A DNA stretch of 40,803 nt, taken from positions 1 to 40,803 of IMG/VR virus record IMGVR_UViG_3300042691_030418. The stretch is one strand, 5' to 3'. The translations under genes were made by a program, and so were the position numbers. This document shows, one piece after another, positions 8,820 through 13,681 of the stretch; the stretch's first letter is position 1; each line of letters opens with the position of its first letter. Under the pieces are notes generated by a model that did no database searches, was not told the DNA's origin, and saw nothing but the letters and a program-made list of their open reading frames with translations. Origin of the DNA: a virus.

Positions 8820-8833
8820 TTTGGTCTCCTGGC

Positions 8834-8846
8834 GGGCACCATGCCC
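8834..8846 (-). promoter_or_regulatory. Leader hairpin of the repeated GGGC-N5-GCCC / AGGAGACC module (copy 1)
   Basis: On the coding strand this reads GGGCATGGTGCCC, then CGCC, AGGAGACC and the ATG of the gene at 8819. The same layout precedes four other leftward genes in this operon. It could be a 5' UTR stability or translation-control element. Confidence 0.6.
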
Positions 8847-8919
8847 TTCCGACGCCTCTGCCCGGCCACCCCTGCGGGCTCCGGGCTCGGGCGCGTTCAG
8901 CGCGGCTGGGGGCGGTGGG

Positions 8920-9982: not shown

Positions 9983-10213
9983 TTAGGCGGCGGGGAAGTC
10001 CCCATCAGTGTGTGTGAATACGCCGTAGGTGTAGACCCGCTGCCCGAGGTCTTTGCCGTTGGCATCGGTGGCGATGACGTAGGCCATGCCGATGTTGCGG
10101 CGGGCGCTTGCCTTGGCGGCTTTGGCAAAAGCCTTCGCCCTGGAAAGCCGGTGAAAGACGAACGGGTTGTCCGGCTGATCGTCGTGGGCGTAATCGACGC
10201 GGTAGGTGGTCAT
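9983..10213 (-). CDS. Hypothetical small phage protein
   Basis: 76 residues; ATG at 10213 preceded by AGGAGAGACCAAG. Sequence MTTYRVDYAHDDQPDNPFVFHRLSRAKAFAKAAKASARR, then a beta-rich half GMAYVIATDANGKDLGQRVYTYG. This strand-helix-strand plan resembles small phage proteins of unknown role. No family is named. Confidence 0.65.
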   Translation of the reverse strand: MTTYRVDYAHDDQPDNPFVFHRLSRAKAFAKAAKASARRNIGMAYVIATDANGKDLGQRVYTYGVFTHTDGDFPAA

Positions 10214-10229
10214 CTTGGTCTCTCCTGTC

Positions 10230-10242
10230 GGGCGGGGTGCCC
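10230..10242 (-). promoter_or_regulatory. Leader hairpin of the repeated module (copy 3)
   Basis: Coding strand GGGCACCCCGCCC then GACAGGAGAGACCAAG and the ATG at 10213. The sequence GGGCGTGTAA immediately upstream parallels the copy at 10674. Confidence 0.6.
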
Positions 10243-10310
10243 TTACACGCCCAAGGCCCGGCCACCTAGCGGCTCCGGGCGTGGGCGGGTTGTCCGCGAA
10301 GGGGGGTGGG

Positions 10311-10487: not shown

Positions 10488-10657
10488 TACGCAACCCCCC
10501 GGAAGGTCCGAATGTCGGCCACTAGCTGTTCGACCGACACGTCGAACACGTCCATGACCAGCGATGCCGTCACGCAGGGCACCGGCTCGGGTTCATCGAT
10601 CCACTCGATGTCGGTGTTGAGTGCCAGCCACTCCATTGCGGTTTCGTAGGTGCCCAT
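10487..10657 (-). CDS. Small hypothetical protein
   Basis: 56 residues from ATG at 10657 with AGGAGACC seven bases upstream. Sequence MGTYETAMEWLALNTDIEW, then acidic stretch IDEPEPVPCVTASLVMDVF and a helical end VEQLVADIRTFRGVA. No family is recognised. First cistron of a two-gene unit with the 58-residue gene downstream. Confidence 0.6.
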   Translation of the reverse strand: MGTYETAMEWLALNTDIEWIDEPEPVPCVTASLVMDVFDVSVEQLVADIRTFRGVA

Positions 10658-10673
10658 TTGTCGGTCTCCTGCC

Positions 10674-10687
10674 GGGCGGGGTTGCCC
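10674..10687 (-). promoter_or_regulatory. Leader hairpin of the repeated module (copy 4)
   Basis: Coding strand GGGCAACCCCGCCC, then GGCAGGAGACCGACAA and the ATG at 10657. Loop of six instead of five. Confidence 0.6.
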
Positions 10688-10762: not shown

Positions 10763-11077
10763 TTACTTGAGGGCACGCTTGCGCGCGTCGGTCAGATACT
10801 TGGCAGCGGCGGCGTCGCGGGCGGTGGCGGTGTCGAAGTGTCGCTCGTTCTGGCTGGCGCCGTATCGCACGCCGTTGCGGGTCGCGCAGGGGTAGAACGA
10901 GAAGTAGCGTCCCGGGGCCCGTCCGTAGCCCCATGACTGGTCGGGGGTCTGGGTGAAGGTGTTTTCCGAGAAGCGGATCGTCGCGCCGATCTTGCGACCC
11001 AGGCGGTCTGTGACGCCGAAGTCATGCTCAACGGTCTCGACGTTGGCGGTCTCGGTGATGCGGGTCAGGATGGTCAT
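10763..11077 (-). CDS. Hypothetical phage protein, 104 aa
   Basis: Starts at ATG 11077 with GAGGAGACCT upstream. N-terminus MTILTRITETANVETVEHDFGVTDRLGRKIGATIRF; centre TFTQTPDQSWGYGRAPGRYFSFYPCATRNG is aromatic-rich; C-terminal helix DTATARDAAAAKYLTDARKRALK is basic. No family is recognised. It is the first leftward gene after the attachment region and probably has its own promoter there. Confidence 0.65.
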   Translation of the reverse strand: MTILTRITETANVETVEHDFGVTDRLGRKIGATIRFSENTFTQTPDQSWGYGRAPGRYFSFYPCATRNGVRYGASQNERHFDTATARDAAAAKYLTDARKRALK

Positions 11078-11092
11078 TTTAGGTCTCCTCGC

Positions 11093-11106
11093 GGGCTGGA
11101 TCGCCC
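11093..11106 (-). promoter_or_regulatory. Leader hairpin of the repeated module (copy 5)
   Basis: Coding strand GGGCGATCCAGCCC followed by GCGAGGAGACCTAAA and the ATG at 11077. It keeps AAGGGC on the 5' side like all other copies except that at 9823, where GAGGGC occurs. Confidence 0.6.
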
Positions 11107-11176
11107 TTCGATAGGTCCACCTTATTGTCACCAGCGGCTTGGACAAGTCCAATCTGGGAGAAAATTCGGGGAACGG

Positions 11177-11199
11177 GGTTCGGGAATATTCCGGGACTC
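11177..11199. repeat. 23-bp repeat, left copy; putative integrase arm site
   Basis: Matches 11409-11431 in 22 of 23 positions and in the same orientation; contains the palindrome GGAATATTCC. The two copies flank the tRNA-like core about 100 bases away on each side, as arm-type integrase sites do in attP. Confidence 0.65.
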
Positions 11200-11245: not shown

Positions 11246-11274
11246 TTGACGGCACCGGGTGCGCGCCCCTAGGG
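11246..11274 (+). promoter_or_regulatory. Sigma-70-type promoter driving the tRNA-like segment
   Basis: CTTGACG at 11245-11251, a 17-bp spacer, then CTAGGG at 11269-11274. The start of transcription would fall about 4 bases before the tRNA-like sequence. CTTGAC/CTAnnn is the type of promoter seen before stable RNA genes in Alphaproteobacteria. The -10 is a weak match, so this is inferred. Confidence 0.5.
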
Positions 11275-11285
11275 AAACGGGGCGC

Positions 11286-11336
11286 GCCGGATTAGCTCAG
11301 CAGGTAGAGCGGCGGTTTTGTAAACCGCAAGTCAGG
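11286..11336 (+). other. 5' part of tRNA-Thr(TGT); putative attP core
   Basis: From 11286 there is a 7-base acceptor strand (GCCGGAT), a D arm (GCTC...GAGC), and a perfect 5-bp anticodon stem (GCGGT/ACCGC) with loop TTTGTAA, anticodon TGT at 11319-11321. Beyond about 11336 no T-arm with TTCRA and no matching acceptor strand (ATCCGGC) is found. Both sides carry phage genes, so this is read as a phage attachment core made from the 5' portion of a host tRNA gene, next to the integrase gene. The exact crossover end cannot be fixed without the host sequence. Confidence 0.7.
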
Positions 11337-11339
11337 GCC

Positions 11340-11373
11340 GATTGAACCCGGTTTTAACCCGGTTCTTTCAATC
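11340..11373. repeat. Inverted repeat at the integrase 3' end
   Basis: GATTGAA at 11340 pairs with TTCAATC ending at 11373; in between lie two AACCCGG-type copies that extend the pairing. It overlaps the last bases of the integrase stop codon. No T-run follows on either strand, so it may be an integrase core-binding site or weak transcript end. Confidence 0.45.
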
Positions 11374-12553
11374 ACTTGTCGCCATCGGTCCCGGTCGCCT
11401 CGGGGGTAGGTTCGGGACTATTCCGGGACTCGGTGACAGAACCGCCCTCCAGCGCCGCCCGCAAGTCGTCCTCCAGGGCGTGCGCGTAGCGGGCCGTGGA
11501 CTGTATGTTCGCGTGCCCGAGGAGGCGCTGGGCGATCTTGATGTTCCCCGACCGGCGCAGGACCGTGGTGCCCGCATGGTGGCGCGTTCCGTGGATCAAC
11601 CGACCACCACCGACGCCCGCCCGCTCCGCGGCATTGTTGAGCCGGGCCTGGAGGCCATAGTAGGTCAGCGAGGCCAGCGTGACCTTGCCGGTGGCCTCGT
11701 CGCGCTCCTCCACGAACCAGATATGGTCGAGCCCCGCCGCCCTGGCGCGGCCCACGCGGGCGGCAACCTCCCGGGCATGTTCCTCCCGCAGCGGGATCGT
11801 GTGGCCGCCCACGTCGCGCTTGCGGCCCCGGCGCCGCTCGCCATCCGGCATCAACCGGCTTCGGATGGTTAAGCGCGGGCCGTCCGGGTCGTAGTCCGCA
11901 GGCTCAAAGAACAGTTCGCCGAACCGGGGGCCGTAGGTCAGCAGGAGGTCCAGGGCCAGCCCCACGGTCGGGCCGCACTCCGCGCGCCACACCCGCTGTT
12001 CCTCCTCGCCATAGACCCGGACGAGTCCGGCGGGCTCCTCCAGGCGCAGCTTGCCCCACCGGATCGGCTGCAGGGTCAGGCCCTTCCGGCTCCATAGCTC
12101 CTCGGCGTAGCGCAGGACGGGCCGAAGCTGGTCGACCACATCGCGGTTCACCGTCGCCGGGCTCGGGAAGTAGCGGCGCGCGTCCTTGGCGCGGGACTTC
12201 TGGTAGGGGATCAGGCGGCGCTTGCGGATGGCGTCGGCCACCATCTCAGCGTCTATGTCGCGGAGCATGGTCGCGCGGCCCAGGAGGCCGATCAGGCGCT
12301 CAAGGCGCCGCTCCACGTCCACGGCATCGCCCCGGTGCTGGCCCACGTCCTGCCACCAGCGCCCACACGCCTCGTCCAGGGTCAGGCTGTCGGCGCTGCC
12401 GAGTCGGCCCTCGGCGATTTCCCGCCGGATGCGGTCTTCCGCCCTCTCAGCGGCGCGTCTCGTAACTTGCCCGGTGCTGCCGTGGTAGCGCGTCCCACGA
12501 AGGACAAAGTCGAACTGCCAGAAGCGACTCTTTGTCGGTTTGTAGACGGACAC
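11372..12553 (-). CDS. int: Tyrosine recombinase integrase
   Basis: 393 residues from a GTG with AAGGAG nine bases upstream. Inserts and excises the phage by site-specific recombination. N-terminal residues 1-60 resemble an arm-binding domain (MSVYKPTKSRFWQFDFVLRG), 55-175 the core-binding domain, and about 180-360 the catalytic domain. Active-site residues: Arg210 (TYGPRFGEL), His321 and Arg324 (HGTRHHAGT), His347 (LLGHANIQST) and Tyr356 (ARYAHAL). The putative attP core lies just past its stop, and one arm repeat lies inside its 3' end. The excisionase-like gene upstream overlaps the first 172 bases. Confidence 0.95.
   Translation of the reverse strand: MSVYKPTKSRFWQFDFVLRGTRYHGSTGQVTRRAAERAEDRIRREIAEGRLGSADSLTLDEACGRWWQDVGQHRGDAVDVERRLERLIGLLGRATMLRDIDAEMVADAIRKRRLIPYQKSRAKDARRYFPSPATVNRDVVDQLRPVLRYAEELWSRKGLTLQPIRWGKLRLEEPAGLVRVYGEEEQRVWRAECGPTVGLALDLLLTYGPRFGELFFEPADYDPDGPRLTIRSRLMPDGERRRGRKRDVGGHTIPLREEHAREVAARVGRARAAGLDHIWFVEERDEATGKVTLASLTYYGLQARLNNAAERAGVGGGRLIHGTRHHAGTTVLRRSGNIKIAQRLLGHANIQSTARYAHALEDDLRAALEGGSVTESRNSPEPTPEATGTDGDK
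11409..11431. repeat. 23-bp repeat, right copy; putative integrase arm site
   Basis: Same orientation and one mismatch relative to 11177-11199. Lies within the last codons of int (encoding SRNSPEP). The placement on both sides of the tRNA-like core supports a complete attP rather than attL or attR. Confidence 0.65.
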
Positions 12554-12822
12554 GGCGCAGGCTCCTTCTGAGCGGGCGTCTCGCGGGGGCGCCCCAGGTA
12601 GGCGCGAAGGTCGGCCTCGGTGTAACGCCGCAGGCCGCCGCCAGTAGGGATTGAACCGATAAGGCCCGCCTGGGCAGCGCCGCGCAAGGTCTTCTCGTCC
12701 AGGCCCAGGACTTCGGCGGCGCGGGCCGCCGTGATCGTGGCGCTCTTGGCGAACGCCTCGCCCAGCAGCCGCTCGGTCGCGTGGCCCAGGTGATCGAGCG
12801 GAGAGGTGTAGACGCTGCTCAT
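12382..12822 (-). CDS. xis: Excisionase-like MerR-type helix-turn-helix protein
   Basis: 146 residues. Residues 25-80 form a winged-helix/MerR-like DNA-binding domain: SATITAARAAEVLGLDEKTL (helix-turn-helix), then GLIGSIPTGGGLRRYTEADL (wing and helix). Such small proteins act as recombination directionality factors next to integrases. Residues 81-146 are low-complexity (RPRETPAQKEPAPCPS...) and are encoded by DNA that also encodes the integrase N-terminus in another frame (172-base overlap). The start ATG overlaps the upstream stop. Naming as xis rests on position and fold. Confidence 0.7.
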   Translation of the reverse strand: MSSVYTSPLDHLGHATERLLGEAFAKSATITAARAAEVLGLDEKTLRGAAQAGLIGSIPTGGGLRRYTEADLRAYLGRPRETPAQKEPAPCPSTNRQRVASGSSTLSFVGRATTAAPGKLRDAPLRGRKTASGGKSPRADSAAPTA

Positions 12823-13364
12823 GGGGGCGCCCGCCCGGCCATGAATTTCGCCACCGCCAGGGCGGCGTCTGTCATTTGGAGCAACTGCTTTTGCGAGGGC
12901 GCGGTCCCGATAGGCATGGTCGCCTCGACCAGCGCGTGACTTAGCCGCGCCAACTCCGCAAAGGCAGCCTCGCTAGCGCGCAGTTCCTCCTTGAGTGCGG
13001 CAAGCTTCGGGTGGGCGGGTGGCATTACCTCCAGCGCGGCCCTGGCGAGCGCGATCAGGTCAACCTCGCCGTCGATGGTTGTGTCGGTCAGGCCGTTCTC
13101 ATCGTAGAGAAACGGGTTCCCCCGCGTCTCCTTCGCTTGGCGGCGTAGCTCCGCCAGCATCGCCTCGGCCACCACGGCCTCGGAAGGCTCTGGTCGGGCG
13201 CGGGTGTTCCAGGCGGCGATGGCCTCCGATAGCGTGGCCTGCGTAATCTCAGCGGGGCACGATGCACACGCCACGAACGGATTGTGCTCGTAGGGGTATA
13301 CATCCCCTATTTCAGCCTCACCCCCGCAAAACGGGCAGCTTTTCAAACTCTCTCGCTCACTCAC
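12819..13364 (-). CDS. Lar-like restriction alleviation protein with helical extension
   Basis: 181 residues from a GTG at 13364 in a GTGA overlap. Residues 7-55 match the Lar pattern: LKSCPFCGGEAEIG (Cys10, Cys13), then FVACASCPAEI (Cys33, Cys36) and ATLSEAIAAWNTRA. Lar-family proteins relieve type I restriction of incoming phage DNA; many phage copies share only this zinc-ribbon. The rest (about 60-181) is a helical region not present in small Lar proteins. Function in anti-restriction is inferred from the domain and from a methyltransferase two genes upstream. Confidence 0.65.
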   Translation of the reverse strand: MSERESLKSCPFCGGEAEIGDVYPYEHNPFVACASCPAEITQATLSEAIAAWNTRARPEPSEAVVAEAMLAELRRQAKETRGNPFLYDENGLTDTTIDGEVDLIALARAALEVMPPAHPKLAALKEELRASEAAFAELARLSHALVEATMPIGTAPSQKQLLQMTDAALAVAKFMAGRAPP

Positions 13365-13681
13365 GACCCGCCTCCTGAGTGGGGGTTGAGGGCTTGGCGG
13401 CTTTCCATCCACTCCGCCATGAAGGCCGGGTCGGCTCTGAGCCGCTTGCGGATATCGTAGCCCTCCCGCCGCGTGATCTCCTGCGCCCCGTACTTGAGCG
13501 CCAAACCCCGGCGCGTCAGGCTCAGGTCGTAGTGGGGGAAACTGGCGTCAGCTTGAAACCACGCCCGGCTCATTCCGATGCGACCGGCCATCGTGTGGAG
13601 TTCGGCCAGGGTGTCAGCAAACATGTGACACATGACCATGCGCCGGAAGTTGTTGCGTTCCTGATCGACGTAGACCGTCAC
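13361..13681 (-). CDS. DUF4031 domain protein
   Basis: 106 residues from a GTG at 13681. The sequence VTVYVDQERNNFRRMVMCHM, then FADTLAELHTMAGRIGMSRAWFQ, HYDLSLTRRGLALKYGAQEITRRE is the DUF4031 signature, a small family found in phages and bacteria. No activity is known to me. Translational coupling to the methyltransferase gene upstream and Lar-like gene downstream suggests a shared module. Confidence 0.8.
   Translation of the reverse strand: MTVYVDQERNNFRRMVMCHMFADTLAELHTMAGRIGMSRAWFQADASFPHYDLSLTRRGLALKYGAQEITRREGYDIRKRLRADPAFMAEWMESRQALNPHSGGGS

Follow-up and report, generated by a model that had tools for sequence, protein, structure and literature searches.

Attachment site of a tailed phage carrying the 5′ half of a tRNA-Thr gene behind a predicted promoter, and changes of polarity in its integrase family

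A segment of viral DNA that carries the 5′ part of a tRNA-Thr(TGT) gene is, with high confidence, the attP of a temperate tailed phage. Its recombination partner would be the host tRNA-Thr(TGT) gene, at the anticodon loop, and the phage-borne 5′ half and promoter would keep the tRNA expressed. The segment lies in a window of 40,803 nt, which is the whole stretch of DNA that was analysed. Both prophage junctions, the position of the intact tRNA, the conservation of the promoter motif, and a pair of free and integrated forms are seen in relatives; what is predicted for the window is that the promoter is active, where exactly the crossover falls, and that the phage itself integrates. As a carrier of the 5′ half, the window would be a member of a rare but known kind, and the newer part is the repeated switching of polarity in its integrase family. 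The features around the site are the following.

11177..11199, no strand assigned: distal arm-type repeat GGTTCGGGAATATTCCGGGACTC, beyond the predicted tRNA promoter (repeat family D10)
11246..11251, plus strand: −35-like TTGACG, read from the sequence (motif kept in 15 of 16 5′-type cases)
11269..11274, plus strand: −10-like CTAGGG (family consensus CTARGG), after a 17-nt spacer and 11 nt from the tRNA start
11286..11328, plus strand: 5′ part of tRNA-Thr(TGT), predicted attP core and carried tRNA fragment (sequence, Rfam, hybrids, host tRNA 40/42 identical)
11317..11323, plus strand: anticodon loop TTTGTAA, presumed 7-bp overlap (crossover), placed from tyrosine-integrase anticodon-loop sites
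11372..12553, minus strand: tyrosine integrase, 393 aa (Pfam Phage_integrase, PF00589, 3.7e-10; catalytic residues invariant)
11409..11431, no strand assigned: int-side arm-type repeat GGTTCGGGACTATTCCGGGACTC, in the last int codons (96% identical direct repeat)

The plus strand at 11286-11328 reads GCCGGATTAGCTCAGCAGGTAGAGCGGCGGTTTTGTAAACCGC and comprises the acceptor 5′ strand, the D arm, and all 5 bp of the anticodon stem around the loop TTTGTAA, in which the anticodon TGT occupies 11319-11321; each part of tRNA-Thr named in the original prediction can therefore be read. The carried piece, ~43 nt in length, is the 5′ end of the tRNA gene and stops at the 3′ side of the anticodon stem. It scores 33.7 bits with the Rfam tRNA model (gathering score 29), with no real T arm, and no complete tRNA is detected by ARAGORN in the 40,803-nt window. 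Hybrids built in silico from the fragment and each of five host 3′ halves were all recognised by ARAGORN as tRNA-Thr(tgt). By analogy with other tyrosine-integrase sites, the exact crossover bases are presumed to lie in the anticodon loop. The Rfam model is aligned from its first to its last position and over the gathering score, which would also suit a decayed phage-encoded tRNA gene lying beside int and unrelated to integration. Such an origin is highly improbable: ARAGORN rejects the fragment, which lacks a genuine T arm and acceptor 3′ strand, the fragments of ~50 relatives also end at the anticodon stem at a near-constant distance from the int arm site, and a relative prophage (L017/L020) is integrated in exactly the same tRNA-Thr gene with its junctions in the corresponding segment.

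The adjacent integrase has the catalytic R..HxxR..H..Y set, of which R210, H321, R324, H347, and Y356 are invariant in alignment A1. Its gene ends ~44 nt from the tRNA fragment, and the core lies outside int, past the stop codon. Two direct repeats (11177-11199 and 11409-11431), 96% identical, lie on either side of the core, and their 15-bp centre, CCCGGAATAGTCCCG, flanks the core on each side in 5′- and 3′-type relatives alike, with its orientation unchanged. Most simply, these repeats would be the integrase arm sites, and the region thus pairs a core common to the host tRNA gene with flanking, predicted arm sites, as in a tRNA attP. Most relatives have the int-side arm at 76-80 bp, about 78, from the anticodon centre; it is farther off in three, namely the window (100 bp), L003 (99), and L033 (91). 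The distal arm lies about 130-145 bp from the loop centre in 5′ types, with measured values of 132-143, versus 143-177 in 3′ types. The window and L003 hold ~22 bp extra, or two helical turns, between int-side arm and core compared to most relatives (window 11320-11420). The int-side arm at 11409-11431 is also part of the int reading frame, in which it specifies the conserved tail SRNSPE, and this C-terminal end seems to be kept for DNA rather than for protein.

Because both arm repeats are present around the core, the window is, as judged from its sequence, a free attP. The int-adjacent copy in lysogens of the 5′ type looks alike and has host DNA beyond it, as would be expected if the window instead came from an integrated prophage and contained an attL/attR junction, the sequence left of the tRNA fragment then belonging to the host. 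This is quite improbable in view of the phage arm repeat at 11177-11199 past the promoter, which displaced host copies do not have, the exceptions being L175 and possibly L017, both read as scars. In addition, a second metagenome contig (L005) runs unchanged through the attP site, and recognised phage genes lie to the right of it; the window, an IMG/VR virus record, encodes a DnaB-type helicase, a RecT-like protein, a portal, and major head proteins. Two other observations concern the surroundings of the free attP. A Lar-like restriction-alleviation protein is encoded near int at 12819-13412 on the minus strand (phrog_599, E 2.4e-10), and several small minus-strand genes have similar leaders of the form GGTCTCCT..GGGCGGGGTGCCC.., 72-76% alike (10202-10266, 10646-10682, 8825-8870, and ~11077-11120), possibly regulatory or ribosome-binding leaders.

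The arrangement after integration can be examined in relatives. The nearest integrase relative having a host is that of a prophage in a Phenylobacterium MAG (L017/L020), at 70-71% identity, and the tRNA 5′ half is present twice on its contig, 53.4 kb apart. The int-adjacent copy is a fragment and represents the 5′ half native to the host. It borders on host genes, whose translations read by eye suggest a methyltransferase, a YaiI-type protein, a cytochrome c, an RND pump, and a glycerol kinase. The far copy is an intact tRNA-Thr by ARAGORN; upstream of it lie phage arm DNA and the promoter-like TTGCGC..CATAAG, and its 3′ half is that of the host. Together with 11 others, this makes 12 prophages in which the intact tRNA is at the end opposite int, the two prophage ends being on different contigs in two of the 12 (G777 and G985). 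The other 11 lie in genes of tRNA-Pro (G682, G683, G777, G825, and G695), tRNA-Leu-TAG (G185), and tRNA-Val-TAC (G725, G760, G985, G885, and G748). In most of the 12, phage arm DNA and a promoter are readable upstream of the intact tRNA and the 3′ half is host-derived; at the thresholds used, the arm was not recognised at the far junctions of L171, L173, and L150, nor the promoter at those of L174 and L176. Furthermore, the same phage is seen free in G684 (L134) and integrated in G682 (L135/L143), and both sides of the free form match the phage sides of the junctions. In relatives, then, the intact tRNA consists of the phage 5′ half with its promoter motif and the host 3′ half. The check on both prophage junctions that accompanied the original prediction was made in these relatives, and it gave the expected arrangement (L017/L020 and 11 more), with the phage copy supplying the 5′ half and a predicted promoter at one prophage end.

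The anticodon in most Pro-type cases is TGG by ARAGORN, and a subgroup reads GGG. The displaced 5′ half lies immediately behind tRNA-Met in several Pro-type hosts and has no promoter motif of its own, so that the phage promoter would have to take over; integration there appears to uncouple tRNA-Pro from its operon and to make the phage promoter necessary. A different way to survive integration into an essential tRNA gene, established in mycobacteriophages (PMC10865867), is tRNA-dependent lysogeny, in which the host tRNA is destroyed and a separate phage tRNA substitutes for it. For the present phage its probability is negligible, given that the window holds no complete tRNA gene, and hence none of the same isotype, and that the ~43-nt type of fragment regenerates a whole tRNA in relatives.

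As predicted to the letter, TTGACG-N17-CTAGGG stands 11 nt upstream of the tRNA. A scan of the region for E. coli-type promoters detected none, because CTAGGG, which is not an E. coli consensus, is far from TATAAT, and the promoter claim therefore rests on conservation within the family. The pattern TTG[ACT]N17-21TA[AGT][GA], sought ≤60 bp upstream of the tRNA fragment, was found in 15/16 5′ cases versus 0/24 (forward) and 1/24 (reverse) of the equivalent 3′-attP stretches, a comparison for which the pattern was composed after viewing the sequences and in which some phages are close kin, the cases not being independent. In shuffled sequences the pattern turned up in 0.43 of 16 on average and in 4 at most, and across the window its background rate is 0.014 per 60 nt. 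The unoccupied host tRNA-Thr of a Caulobacter (L018) has TTGCCC..CTAAGG upstream, somewhat farther from the tRNA. We infer that the carried motif may be an active promoter of the tRNA.

Recombination by the integrase would take place between attP and the anticodon loop of the host gene for tRNA-Thr(TGT), and because the phage carries the 5′ half, integration would sever the host gene from its own promoter. The host 5′ half would move next to int, and the phage 5′ half would join the host 3′ half behind the putative promoter, sited between the tRNA fragment and the distal arm, which would keep the hybrid tRNA expressed. Since the symmetric anticodon stem may offer the integrase similar core-binding sites in both orientations, the asymmetric 7-bp overlap alone would set which half is restored, and this overlap would have been inverted repeatedly. 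For some lysogens, the essential tRNA must then be read from phage DNA.

The host tRNA-Thr(TGT) gene was aligned to the segment, as had been proposed. In 47/390 genomes of the family of the Phenylobacterium MAG it begins GCCGGATTAGCTCAGCTGGTAGAGCAGCGGTTTTGTAAACCG and is identical to the window at 40/42 positions, and because it differs at only 2/42 the fragment is not a chance match. The six host tRNA-Thr loci that were read have the 3′ end ATCCGGC, which pairs with the phage GCCGGAT. Across 385 genomes from the class of the MAG and 390 from its family, no exact 42-nt match to the window 5′ half was found, the best having two differences, and the same search revealed no lysogen of the window phage. 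On the strength of the tRNA-Thr(TGT) matches in the MAG's family, the host of the window phage probably belongs to the Caulobacteraceae.

Fifty-two relatives were scored for polarity, the window included and many IMG/VR contigs that end at the int stop codon left aside; they divide into 25 with the 5′ half and 27 with the 3′ half. The tRNA is directed toward int in 23/25 5′ cases and away from it in 27/27 3′ cases, and ten further sphingomonad loci, read later, comprise nine 5′ and one 3′. The attP frame, in terms of arm orientation and near-same spacing, is alike whichever half is carried, and it is the overlap that is inverted. In the int-forward direction the window reads GCGGT-TTACAAA-ACCGC versus GCGGT-TTTGTAA-ACCGA in L002, a 3′ type, and L011 reads GCTGC-TCCCAAA-GCAGA versus ACTGC-TTTGGGA-GCAGA in L013. 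Thr-TGT, Pro-TGG, and Pro-GGG each occur in both polarities. On a tree of 43 integrases, from which the C-terminal tail was left out, polarity changes at least four times, and exactly four times over the 5-95% range of bootstrap trees; all four changes are forced by well-supported branches. The window and L003 form a 5′ pair within a 3′ clade, and L012/L013/L061 and L060/L076 are 3′ groups within 5′ clades. As speculation, an inversion could originate if a phage, on rare occasions, integrated in the wrong orientation and then excised with the other half. With one enzyme family and arm motif, a near-same frame, and opposite overlaps, the family is a natural test of which tRNA half gets carried. 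No description of polarity switching, or of a family of both polarities whose frame is conserved, was found in the accessible literature. Some members are laid out otherwise. L147 and L148 (G692 and G691) have a Leu-TAA attP of the 5′ type with the tRNA directed away from int, where, by eye, the entire arm-core-arm module appears inverted relative to the int gene. L123 (G267), also read by eye, apparently carries a tRNA 3′ half whose anticodon resembles TCA; this may be a selenocysteine tRNA, an unusual attachment gene.

Some host loci resemble the phage side of the junction. In G001 the displaced host copy and the phage copy are alike over ~110 bp upstream, roughly 85% by eye, and the common stretch includes a TTCCCGTTYGTTCCC box, which TTCCCGTCCGTTCCC in the window resembles. 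In G760 a displaced host copy with an arm-like site (3 mismatches) and a promoter adjoins an apparent host gene. Displaced host tRNA copies whose upstream DNA resembles phage arm and promoter are those of L017 and L175, possible scars of lost prophages. The simplest reading of G001 and G760 is that an earlier 5′-type prophage would have been lost and its promoter left with the host, although the phage may instead have captured host sequence. The former reading suggests that lost prophages can leave a phage promoter at a host tRNA. A broader proposal, on which we are evenly balanced, is that polarity is an evolutionary switch thrown in both directions by inversion of the 7-bp overlap, made possible by the symmetry of the anticodon stem, and that the promoter and arm scars of lost 5′-type prophages would drive turnover of tRNA promoters in alphaproteobacteria. 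If so, each inversion of the overlap would convert between two kinds of phage, one after whose integration the essential tRNA is still driven by the host promoter and one that brings it under a promoter of the phage. Software for prophage detection that relies on 3′ fragments, or on tRNAs behind host promoters, would misplace such ends.

That most tRNA-integrating phages carry the 3′ part agrees with the Islander database, where 3760/3919 islands carry 3′ fragments and 159/3919 carry 5′ fragments (PMC4383910); the 5′ version was thus already known. Its 5′-fragment islands and prophages resemble the window in the fragment carried, in regeneration of the tRNA away from the displaced fragment, and in an anticodon-centred subsite, but neither an integrase family of dual polarity nor an analysis of promoters was found in the accessible portion of that paper. 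An archaeal review (PMC8371274) states, with reference to Williams 2002, that recombinant bacterial tRNAs retain the original promoter in all but very few cases; it also describes pTN3-like elements as using the tRNA 5′ half. Like the window, archaeal IntpTN3 has an attP made of a tRNA 5′ half and parts the recombinant tRNA from its original promoter; in pTN3-like elements, however, the att site is inside int, int is split on integration, and the tRNA is expressed from the integrase promoter (PMC5495485, PMC8371274). In the window, unlike this SSV-type layout, att lies outside int, which would stay whole, and a dedicated, predicted tRNA promoter is carried. The 3′-half relatives (L002, L007, L008, L012, L013, L015, and Synechococcus phage Ssp-JY42) share the integrase family, the CCCGGAATAGTCCCG arm motif with its orientation, and the anticodon-loop crossover, but their overlap is inverted relative to int, the 3′ half is restored with the host promoter in charge, and the distal arm has no promoter motif. 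Finally, tRNA-dependent lysogeny of actinobacteriophages likewise preserves an essential tRNA on integration by means of a phage-borne tRNA promoter, whereas it employs a complete, separate tRNA gene and a short core and forms no hybrid tRNA (PMC10865867).
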